The notes beneath the pieces are model-generated. The model was not told the origin of the DNA and searched no databases. It was given only the letters and a program-made list of their open reading frames with translations. This document shows positions 15,764 through 18,848 of a stretch of DNA of 64,000 nucleotides, one piece after another. This DNA is from an uncultured Methanobrevibacter sp. (lineage in GTDB: Archaea; Methanobacteriota; Methanobacteria; Methanobacteriales; Methanobacteriaceae): the NCBI RefSeq assembly GCF_947170395.1, contig NZ_CAMVTE010000010.1, forward strand, positions 1 to 64,000, read 5' to 3'. The first letter of the stretch is position 1. Each line of letters starts with the position of its first letter. The position numbers and the translations under genes are program-made.

Positions 15764-16873
15764 TCAATCAATAACAATTTTCGCTGATTCAAATTCGTTA
15801 TTAATTTTCCCGTTACTTTCTTCTAACTTTTTGAAATCCTCTCTGGAAATCACTATCACATCCTCATTTGATATATAATTATCATTTATGTCACAGGATA
15901 TGATCTTACAGCTGCTGCAATTTCTAATAATTATATTGTTTTCATCTCTAAATTGGGATTTTTCAATTTTAAGGTAATATCGGTCTGTAAAACTTGATGG
16001 AGCCTCGTCAATTCCAATGTTTAAAATTTGGCTGTCCTTAAACCAACAGCCGACTATATTAAAATAACCTCCATTACAAATGGATTTTCCATAGCCTTGA
16101 TTTTCGCTTTCAAATTTCGAATCTTTTAAAAAAACATTGCCTGATCTGTTTAGGATGGAGACAAAATATCCTCCATAATCATTGGTGCAAAATTCGTTTC
16201 GGTTGTTGTTGAAGTTGCATTTTTCAATTGTTAAAACGCCTTTTTCATTGTAAATAACACATATGTCATTGTTTCTAGCCAGATTATCATGAAAACTGCA
16301 ATCTGTTATTTTTGAAGTTCCCTTATTGTGAATCAGACCGTCCCCTTTGGTGAAATTTTCACTGAAGGTGGAATTTGAAATAATCAGTGTGGAGTCTTCA
16401 AAATTTTTGCATATGGTTTTTGTATATTCTGCGGAATTGTCTTTAAAGTTTGAATCAATAATCTTCATATTTCCATAGTTTTCATGAATAACGCCGTCAT
16501 TGCCAATGAATTCACAGTTATCTATAATCACGTTTCCCTTGTTTGAAATTAGGCCGTATCCACAATCAAGATTGATGAATTTGCAGTTGATAAATGAAAG
16601 TGTTTTGTTGTTTTTTAGCAATGTCATCAGATATGGCGTTTTAAAATTCTTGAATTCGACATTTCTTACAGTCAGGTTTGAGTTATTGTCCAAATGAAAT
16701 GTTTGGCCGTTGCCGTCAATTGTGTGATTGCATCCTTCAATAACCAAATTGTCCGCATTGGCTGAAGTAAAAGTTTCTTCCTCTAAAATAACATCCTCAG
16801 AAATGGTTATTTTATCATTTCCGAATTCGATTAAATCAGTTAAATCTCTAAAATTCATAAAACACCAATCCAT
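15764..16873 (-). CDS. Right-handed beta-helix protein without signal peptide
   Basis: A protein of about 369 residues made mostly of short repeats of the kind ...NVEFKNF, INCKFINLD, DNCEFIGND, SNSTFSENF, TDCSFHDN, EKCNFNNN, typical of pectate-lyase-like parallel beta-helices. It resembles the passenger region of methanogen adhesin-like proteins, but begins MDWCFMNFRDLTDLIEFG with no signal peptide or membrane anchor. The track starts at a TTG (16897) inside the upstream gene; the ATG at 16873, one base after the upstream stop, is far more likely. It is tightly coupled to the ATPase-less ABC membrane protein, implying joint function. Function unknown. Confidence 0.8.
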   Translation of the reverse strand: MDWCFMNFRDLTDLIEFGNDKITISEDVILEEETFTSANADNLVIEGCNHTIDGNGQTFHLDNNSNLTVRNVEFKNFKTPYLMTLLKNNKTLSFINCKFINLDCGYGLISNKGNVIIDNCEFIGNDGVIHENYGNMKIIDSNFKDNSAEYTKTICKNFEDSTLIISNSTFSENFTKGDGLIHNKGTSKITDCSFHDNLARNNDICVIYNEKGVLTIEKCNFNNNRNEFCTNDYGGYFVSILNRSGNVFLKDSKFESENQGYGKSICNGGYFNIVGCWFKDSQILNIGIDEAPSSFTDRYYLKIEKSQFRDENNIIIRNCSSCKIISCDINDNYISNEDVIVISREDFKKLEESNGKINNEFESAKIVID

Positions 16874-16874
16874 G

Positions 16875-18848
16875 TTATTTAAATTTTTCAAATTCAATTA
16901 TTCCGAATATTCTTTTCATACTTGAAAATGATGTTTCAAGAGAAATCAGTGATGTACTTACTTTTTTAAGTGGTTTTGTTAATAATTGTCCGTAAATAAT
17001 AACGGTAAGGAGAGTTCCCAATTGTATTTCATTAGTCACCAAAAAGTAAAATCCAATAATGTAAACGGAAATGTTACTTAGGTTTGTAAGTAAGGTTGTA
17101 ATCGGAAATACCGCATTGGAAATGTTTCTTGATTTGATGTAATGGTCTGTTACAGTTTCATTGATTTTTTCAAACCCTTTTTCATGGAATTTGCTGCGAT
17201 TAGTCAGGCTTCTTTCAAAATAGCTCATCATTATTCCCAAATTTTTTTTGTGATTTTCATATAGCGTTTTGGACTTTATGTCACTGTAATAAAAACAAAT
17301 GAAATAGATAGGTAAGGTTATAAGATAAATAAGGCTCAGTTTCCAGTCTGTTGTTAAAATCAGCACGATTACAAACAGTATGGATAGGAATTGTGCTATA
17401 ATTTCGGAAATGTGCATTGAAATGAACTCCCTGATGTTCATCAGGTCGTTGTTGAGTCTGGACAGGACATGTCCCTTCGAATTCTTTTGGATAAATGTCT
17501 GACCGATAGTTTCCAGATTATCAAACAGTTCCATTCTTAAATTATAAGCTATCTTTTCACTTACAAAAGCCATAAATCTATTTGAAGGTAATTTAAGCAG
17601 ATAACCCACAGAATATAATGTAAACAATAATCCAATATTTGCTAAAATTGTGTTTGGTGAATCAGAATCAAATAAAAACATATTAACTATGTTTCCTGCA
17701 ACTTTAGGAGCATATACGATGCACAATGTGGATATTGTAAGTAAAACCATCGAGATTATTACATGAATCCTGTAGTGACTCAATACCATGTTGAATTTTC
17801 GCGCAATTTCTTTTCTGTCGACTAATGTGTTTTTATAGTCGTTTTCAATATCTTTTTCAATGATTTCTATTCTTTTTGATGCTTTTTCGTTTTCAATTAC
17901 CTTATCTTCAAGATTTAATACTTCCTCCAAACGTACTGATGTGGCGTATGAACGTGGCCATCTTTCAATCATTGTCGGAACAATCACCAATGTGGTCATG
18001 AAGTAAAGTATGTACTGTATGATGACTACAGAATCAATGATGTTTTCGGCTTCAAAACCGATTGAGTATCCGAAGTTCATCATTGTCAGCAAGACCACAA
18101 TAAGGACATCCAAAACCAACAGAAGTATGGGTCCGAGGTAATACTGGCTTAACAGATAGGTAATGTTTTTGTTATAGGAATCTTCACATGCCTTTTCAAA
18201 TTCACAGTGAGCTTCTTGTCTTTTAAAGGGGATGCCATTGGCTATGTTGCTGATTTTGTTAAAAAACAACTGGTTAATCTTTCCATAAGTCTTTTTTGCC
18301 TTAAAGTATATTTGTGTAAGCTGCTTTAATCTTAAAATTATAATTGCTGTGAGTATGAGGATGACTGTCGCAAACAATGCAGCAAAAGTCATGTCAATCA
18401 AGGCTATTTCAACCACGATAGCTATAAATACAAAGGGAATCACAATAAATTGCTTTAGGATTATGATTAGGAAGCCCTGTTCGGAATATATTCCTCTGGT
18501 TGACCTTGTAATGAGGCCTGTAATTTTAAATTTGTTTATCTCTTCATCAGGAAGGTTCATCAGGATATGGAAGATTTTCTCACGGGTATCGTGTGCGACC
18601 TTTGAAGAAACTTTTGTTGCGAGAACGGAAGTTGCATAAATTGAAATCATTGAAAGCACTGTTAATATCAGCATCAATGCCGCATCATCGAAAAGCAGAT
18701 TAATTTCCTGAGATTTAAGGTCCATCAATGCGGAACTGAACTGGTTAATAATTTCTATTTGAAAAACAGTCTGAAGAATTACCAGCACGAAAATGACTGA
18801 TATTGTCTTCCATTGGGGTTTCAATGCAAATTTCAAAAATTTCTTCAT
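16875..18848 (-). CDS. Fused double ABC-exporter membrane domain lacking any ATPase domain
   Basis: A 657-residue membrane protein consisting of two ABC-exporter transmembrane domains in tandem. The first spans about residues 1-310 (KVAHDTREKIFHILMNLPDE is the characteristic segment after helix 2) and the second about 350-650 (ISTLCIVYAPKVAGNIVN, EKIAYNLRMELFDNLETIG). Each is followed by sequence normally leading into a nucleotide-binding domain (SVRLEEVLN..., SSMKRIFGIIEF), but no Walker A, signature LSGGQ or Walker B motif exists in either place. In normal paired exporters each half would be about 580 residues. The frame is intact, so this looks like a stable architecture and not recent decay. 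A beta-helix gene follows one base after the stop. Confidence 0.85.
   Translation of the reverse strand: MKKFLKFALKPQWKTISVIFVLVILQTVFQIEIINQFSSALMDLKSQEINLLFDDAALMLILTVLSMISIYATSVLATKVSSKVAHDTREKIFHILMNLPDEEINKFKITGLITRSTRGIYSEQGFLIIILKQFIVIPFVFIAIVVEIALIDMTFAALFATVILILTAIIILRLKQLTQIYFKAKKTYGKINQLFFNKISNIANGIPFKRQEAHCEFEKACEDSYNKNITYLLSQYYLGPILLLVLDVLIVVLLTMMNFGYSIGFEAENIIDSVVIIQYILYFMTTLVIVPTMIERWPRSYATSVRLEEVLNLEDKVIENEKASKRIEIIEKDIENDYKNTLVDRKEIARKFNMVLSHYRIHVIISMVLLTISTLCIVYAPKVAGNIVNMFLFDSDSPNTILANIGLLFTLYSVGYLLKLPSNRFMAFVSEKIAYNLRMELFDNLETIGQTFIQKNSKGHVLSRLNNDLMNIREFISMHISEIIAQFLSILFVIVLILTTDWKLSLIYLITLPIYFICFYYSDIKSKTLYENHKKNLGIMMSYFERSLTNRSKFHEKGFEKINETVTDHYIKSRNISNAVFPITTLLTNLSNISVYIIGFYFLVTNEIQLGTLLTVIIYGQLLTKPLKKVSTSLISLETSFSSMKRIFGIIEFEKFK

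Follow-up and report, generated by a model that had tools for sequence, protein, structure and literature searches.

The window, by which we mean the whole 64,000-nucleotide stretch of DNA that was analyzed, encodes a membrane protein, here called X, that very probably descends from a Methanobrevibacter TM287/288-type heterodimeric ABC exporter and is now ATPase-free, conserved and horizontally mobile; we consider the case for this identity and origin strong. The gene and its parts are as follows.

16875..18848, minus strand: X, two type IV ABC-exporter membrane domains fused in one 657-residue protein that has no nucleotide-binding domains (NBDs)
17901..18848, minus strand: N half of X (residues 1-316), a TM287-like membrane domain with elbow helix and TM1-6, assigned from the PDB profile match 3qf4_A, the AlphaFold2 helices and the tree
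18513..18557, minus strand: coupling helix 1 region of the N half (residues 98-112), retained, within the most conserved region of the family
17829..17900, minus strand: linker (residues 317-340), the site of the missing first NBD, with low model confidence
16878..17828, minus strand: C half of X (residues 341-657), a TM288-like membrane domain, assigned from the PDB profile match 3qf4_B and the tree
17472..17504, minus strand: coupling helix 1 region of the C half (residues 449-459, directly before the LSRLNND motif), retained
17181..17204, minus strand: coupling helix 2 of the C half (residues about 549-556), short by 8 residues

A Pfam search of X returned ABC_membrane (PF00664, E=5.4e-36) over two stretches and no ABC_tran, and its NCBIfam matches are exporters whose alignment with X is confined to their membrane parts, bearing out the first-pass annotation's description of a double exporter membrane domain without an ATPase. 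The frame, which had also been called intact, indeed runs from its ATG for 657 residues at 16875-18848 on the minus strand, and dN/dS indicates that it is under selection. Both halves stop a few residues beyond the usual membrane-to-ATPase boundary (...SVRLEEVLNLEDK and ...SSMKRIFGIIEFEKFK). A profile search against the PDB paired TM287 (3qf4_A, residues 13-332) with the N half and TM288 (3qf4_B, residues 31-339) with the C half, indicating that X is a fused TM287/288-type heterodimer that has kept neither NBD. The AlphaFold2 model, built from 14 family members (pLDDT 72.6, pTM 0.70), contains two exporter domains of six helices each, plus elbow helices and long extensions into the cytoplasm. 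For this 12-TM exporter architecture, Foldseek ranked the P-glycoprotein membrane domain first (8y6i, TM-score 0.69). A defence-library search gave no match for X or for the product of the neighboring gene, BH.

We found matches to X at E<=1e-100 in 34 of 67 same-genus genomes and, counting from the same table, 32 near-full-length copies without an internal stop in 27 of the 67. A phylum set of 152 genomes added to the family only the sister-genus genomes G109 and G120, plus a remnant in G097, and the viral contigs searched contained no X. The relatives, found in dozens of genomes, are about 645-700 residues long and share 50-75% identity (most 50-60%); the named X loci are all from Methanobrevibacter, many of them from the guts of goat, roe deer and water buffalo. 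Because the family is conserved across dozens of genomes, the observation is far from chance. Conservation is uneven along the protein: the linker (residues 317-340) is the least conserved region, whereas the NBD-docking cytoplasmic loops are among the most conserved parts, with the N-half ICD1 foremost (mean identity 0.89 versus 0.76-0.85 in the membrane spans), and Tyr, Gln and Asn are invariant at many positions in TM1, TM2, TM5 and TM6.

The family is under purifying selection and is not a local oddity, with dN/dS between 0.09 and 0.31 among the 30 closest family pairs; for the window copy we measured 0.17 against L094 (one frameshift in the pair) and 0.15 against L095 (one stop). The first-pass annotation had proposed that relatives with full NBDs, together with relaxed selection, would mark X as the decaying remnant of a full exporter. 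Full-length relatives whose halves bear NBDs do exist, and stops or frameshifts occur in a few copies (G007, G066), so X is dispensable in places. However, selection is not relaxed, the ATPase domains of the nearest clade are themselves dead, and the 32 genus copies keep a clean frame over their whole length, each half terminating at the domain boundary. In addition, a block of about 6.3 kb that includes X aligns gap-free among G109, G064 and G089, and the X DNA within it is 100% identical across two genera, so that X has probably moved between genera recently. Decay is refuted for the X family as a whole, and as an account of X we regard it as extremely improbable. The 6.3-kb block (L187:6516-12176, L196:4689-10349, L197:5352-11012) also contains two flavodoxin-like proteins, a winged-helix protein and a RhuM protein.

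A maximum-likelihood tree of the N and C membrane domains, in which some long branches are flagged, has mirrored topologies in its two halves, with starred branches for X and the dead-exporter groups. From the outermost branch inward, the order is canonical heterodimeric exporters, the L057 pair, the L044, L050, L055 and L056 pairs, the G032 pair (L052) and X; within the X clade, L048 is basal and the window copy follows. In both tree halves, X and the G032 pair together have the exporters of L044, L050, L055 and L056 as their sister clade. The exporters of L060, L057 and L189 have the usual NBD arrangement with one consensus site. In the four sister-clade exporters this site is destroyed, through loss of Walker A in subunit b, the signature in subunit a, the Walker B glutamate and the H-loop, and the only surviving motif is the non-catalytic Walker A of subunit a. 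Their dead NBDs evolve at a dN/dS of 0.18-0.29, about equal to or below that of their own membrane domains, and since this is no laxer than in the membrane domains, the dead domains are kept. In the G032 pair, one NBD is additionally frameshifted.

The dead-NBD heterodimers under purifying selection lie at L044:10039-13288, L050:10976-14180, L055:7149-10353 and L056:2130-5428, and in L044 and L050 the heterodimer adjoins X tail-to-tail. The canonical TM287/288-type exporter occurs in a recurring operon (L057:4942-14121, L189:1704-9883, L190:3692-11871) together with GH3-type synthetases, a RimK-like ATP-grasp protein and a STAS protein, with an NRPS alongside in L057.

The sequence, tree and motif data show the order of the loss steps in this lineage: the catalytic ATP site went first, while selection still acted on the dead domains; both NBDs were then lost by deletion and the subunits joined in one chain without a change of order; and one NBD-docking coupling loop was trimmed later. 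The C-half coupling helix 2 carries a deletion of 8 residues in comparison to ABC exporters, the dead heterodimers and the basal X copies L048 and L121; it is trimmed in all X examined except these two basal copies, and the other three coupling helices are retained and conserved. The apparent intermediates (a live pump, a dead-ATPase pump under selection, a frameshifted pair and an ATPase-free fusion) coexist in one genus, making the order of events directly testable. The dead-NBD clade also raises the question of what role an ABC exporter with dead NBDs plays.

We then consider whether X is an ordinary split ABC exporter, powered in trans by NBDs that are encoded elsewhere or borrowed, since energizing in trans was among the possibilities raised by the first-pass annotation. 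In its favor, three of the four coupling helices are retained and conserved, and canonical exporters with intact NBDs are encoded in the same genome (G000:C25). However, an exporter-NBD profile search over five genomes found no detached exporter-type NBD pair. In the window genome (G000, 88.8% complete) and in a complete X-bearing genome (G014, a single 2.54-Mb contig), exporter-type NBDs occur only within TMD-NBD proteins, scoring above 225 bits, or 86 bits for the dead G014 subunit b. The best soluble NBDs score about 120-147 bits against the same profile, more than 70 bits weaker; they are of other ABC types and are equally present in the complete X-less genomes G011 and G034. A detached pair is thus not supported, bearing in mind the 88.8% completeness of G000, and the co-occurring detached NBD genes that would have made X a split transporter were found neither there nor in the complete G014. 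Deletion of one docking loop in all but the basal copies, and the dead NBDs of the nearest NBD-bearing relatives, further disfavor energizing in trans, which we judge improbable. Because X has no NBDs of its own and no detached exporter NBD was found, we do not class it functionally as an ABC transporter.

The gene downstream of X lies on the same strand.

15764..16858, minus strand: BH, a signal-less right-handed beta-helix protein of 364 residues from the family-consistent start

Its description as a signal-less beta-helix protein agrees with a Pfam match (PF13229, E=1.9e-9), a model consisting of a right-handed beta-helix and an N-terminal helix (pLDDT 79, pTM 0.84), and the lack of any hydrophobic signal segment in its sequence; Foldseek returned only generic beta-helix matches. 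The reading frame is also open from an ATG at 16873 and a TTG at 16897. The earlier placement of this gene one base after the X stop corresponds to the ATG at 16873, but relatives of BH align from an 'MNF'-type start, which in the window is at 16858 and is preceded by GGTG, so the gap between X and BH is likely 16 bases.

A dedicated complex of X and BH, in which the beta-helix protein replaces the ATPase, was the first-pass annotation's reading of this neighborhood, and the shared strand and 16-base gap suggest that the two genes are probably co-transcribed in the window genome. However, of the 36 other X loci at which the downstream gene can be read, none has a BH-type neighbor in that place, so the gene pair sought in other genomes did not recur. 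DNA alignment of the window to its two closest relatives (L094 and L095) stops at the stop codon of X, and BH-like proteins are multicopy and found elsewhere in the genome, some of them beside other genes or carrying a fused TIR or DUF285 domain. The coupling is not supported by these data; we consider such a complex very improbable, and BH looks like a recent, lineage-specific, incidental neighbor of X and not a subunit.

The BH family is multicopy and signal-less, with members that start 'MNF(R/K)..'; it forms arrays, and TIR or DUF285 domains are present in some of its proteins. Methanobrevibacter adhesin-like proteins are marked by a signal peptide and cell-surface beta-helix repeats; BH has the beta-helix but no signal segment, and it groups with short signal-less beta-helix proteins. 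This signal-less family is genus-wide, with arrays in L076, L078, L079, L080 and L092. A member at L083:17935-19611 (minus strand) has an N-terminal TIR domain (TIR_2, 2.1e-16), another has DUF285, and stand-alone TIR proteins lie near one member in L075.

Two other candidate partners were considered and rejected. A giant signal-bearing adhesin-like protein is encoded next to X on the same strand in eight loci, mostly of one clade and with a gap of 319-459 bp; it is absent from most other loci and is therefore not a general partner of X. In the one clade, the adhesin-like genes, encoding over 2,600 to over 4,000 residues, lie downstream of X with little variation in this gap (L031:1-8299, L038:11503-19501, L040:11191-19901 and L041:7195-19237). 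Similarly, an NRPS fragment lies directly upstream of X in L034, and NRPS genes lie near L052, L054 and L057, a link that is not general across X loci.

Taken as a whole, the data are best explained, with a moderate degree of confidence, by a TM287/288-derived ATPase-free family that would act as an ATP-independent transporter or facilitator, with BH as an incidental neighbor. X would form a 12-helix pseudo-heterodimer that retains a ligand cavity and a cytoplasmic gate and would need no ATP hydrolysis to act as a secondary transporter or facilitator, in parallel to the isolated MsbA membrane domain (MsbA-MD) and to SbmA/BacA; its cargo may be a small lipophilic or peptidic compound, driven by its own gradient or by an ion gradient. 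Alignment to E. coli MsbA places its proton-coupling acids D41, E149 and D252 at Q30, I137 and G239 in the N half of X, and at a hydrophobic residue, Q486 and a variable residue in the C half. By sequence, X has no conserved mid-membrane acid ladder, its conserved acids lying at the membrane interfaces or in the cytoplasm. Since the MsbA positions are not acidic and no such ladder is seen in the sequence, X cannot simply copy the mechanisms of MsbA or SbmA.

The lack of conserved ion-coupling acids would also fit a non-transporting pseudo-transporter, that is, a ligand receptor, regulator or scaffold that signals via its cytoplasmic loops to a cytosolic partner. That the N-half ICD1 exceeds all membrane spans in conservation though no NBD binds there points in the same direction; together with the three retained coupling-helix regions, it makes an unknown cytosolic partner possible. 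A sister clade without catalysis that keeps its NBDs under selection suggests that a non-pumping role may predate NBD loss. However, the neighborhoods of X vary (MFS efflux genes, adhesins, CstA, TetR) and contain no constant signaling partner, and transport by exporter membrane domains that lack an NBD is known (PMC4979069). We regard a receptor or scaffold role as rather unlikely, and the best reading of X is a heterodimer-derived parallel to SbmA/BacA, with an energy source and substrate as proposed above for an ATP-independent transporter.

Our literature search found no papers on archaeal NBD-less exporters, and the nearest comparisons come from three known systems and from the dead exporters of the same genus. 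X resembles the TM287/288 exporters (PDB 3qf4) in that both halves match the subunit membrane domains, the model has the 12-TM architecture and the tree joins them; it differs in having no NBDs, in the fusion of the subunits into one chain and in the trimmed coupling helix 2 of its second half. The dead exporters of L044, L050, L055 and L056, its sister clade, still have both NBDs, with a dead consensus site and under purifying selection. MsbA-MD has undergone the same type of truncation as X. MsbA without its NBD still exports ethidium in a manner dependent on the pH gradient (PMC4979069), although it fails to rescue the lipid-transport defect (PMC8660845). A membrane domain of this type can move drugs using the proton gradient (PMC4979069, PMC8660845). 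Unlike X, MsbA-MD is engineered and homodimeric, and the acids D41, E149 and D252, mutation of all three of which abolishes transport, have non-acidic counterparts in X.

A natural example is the proton-driven SbmA, an exporter-fold transporter in which the NBD and coupling helices have been lost (PMC13316013). The SbmA/BacA family (SLiPT) consists of natural peptide transporters; like X, they have an exporter-type membrane domain, lost the NBD in evolution and must work without hydrolyzing ATP themselves (PMC13316013). SbmA homodimerizes, has an additional TM0 and a glutamate ladder, and lacks an elbow helix and coupling helices, whereas in X a heterodimer is fused in one chain that has elbow helices, keeps most of the coupling helices and shows no obvious acid ladder. 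The model of X starts at the elbow helix and TM1, includes coupling helices and has no SbmA-type TM0; X has no Pfam match to the SbmA/BacA family at E<=1, ABC_membrane being its sole significant family. X and SbmA/BacA are of independent origin. Conversion of a primary pump into a secondary transporter is an open question for which SbmA/BacA is the main natural example. We tentatively suggest that Methanobrevibacter may preserve a stepwise record of passage from an ATP-driven heterodimeric exporter to an ATP-free membrane protein that has started to lose its docking loops, and that X may represent a second class of natural exporter-fold transporters without NBDs, one that arose independently and from a heterodimer, with a coupling unlike the glutamate ladder of SbmA.
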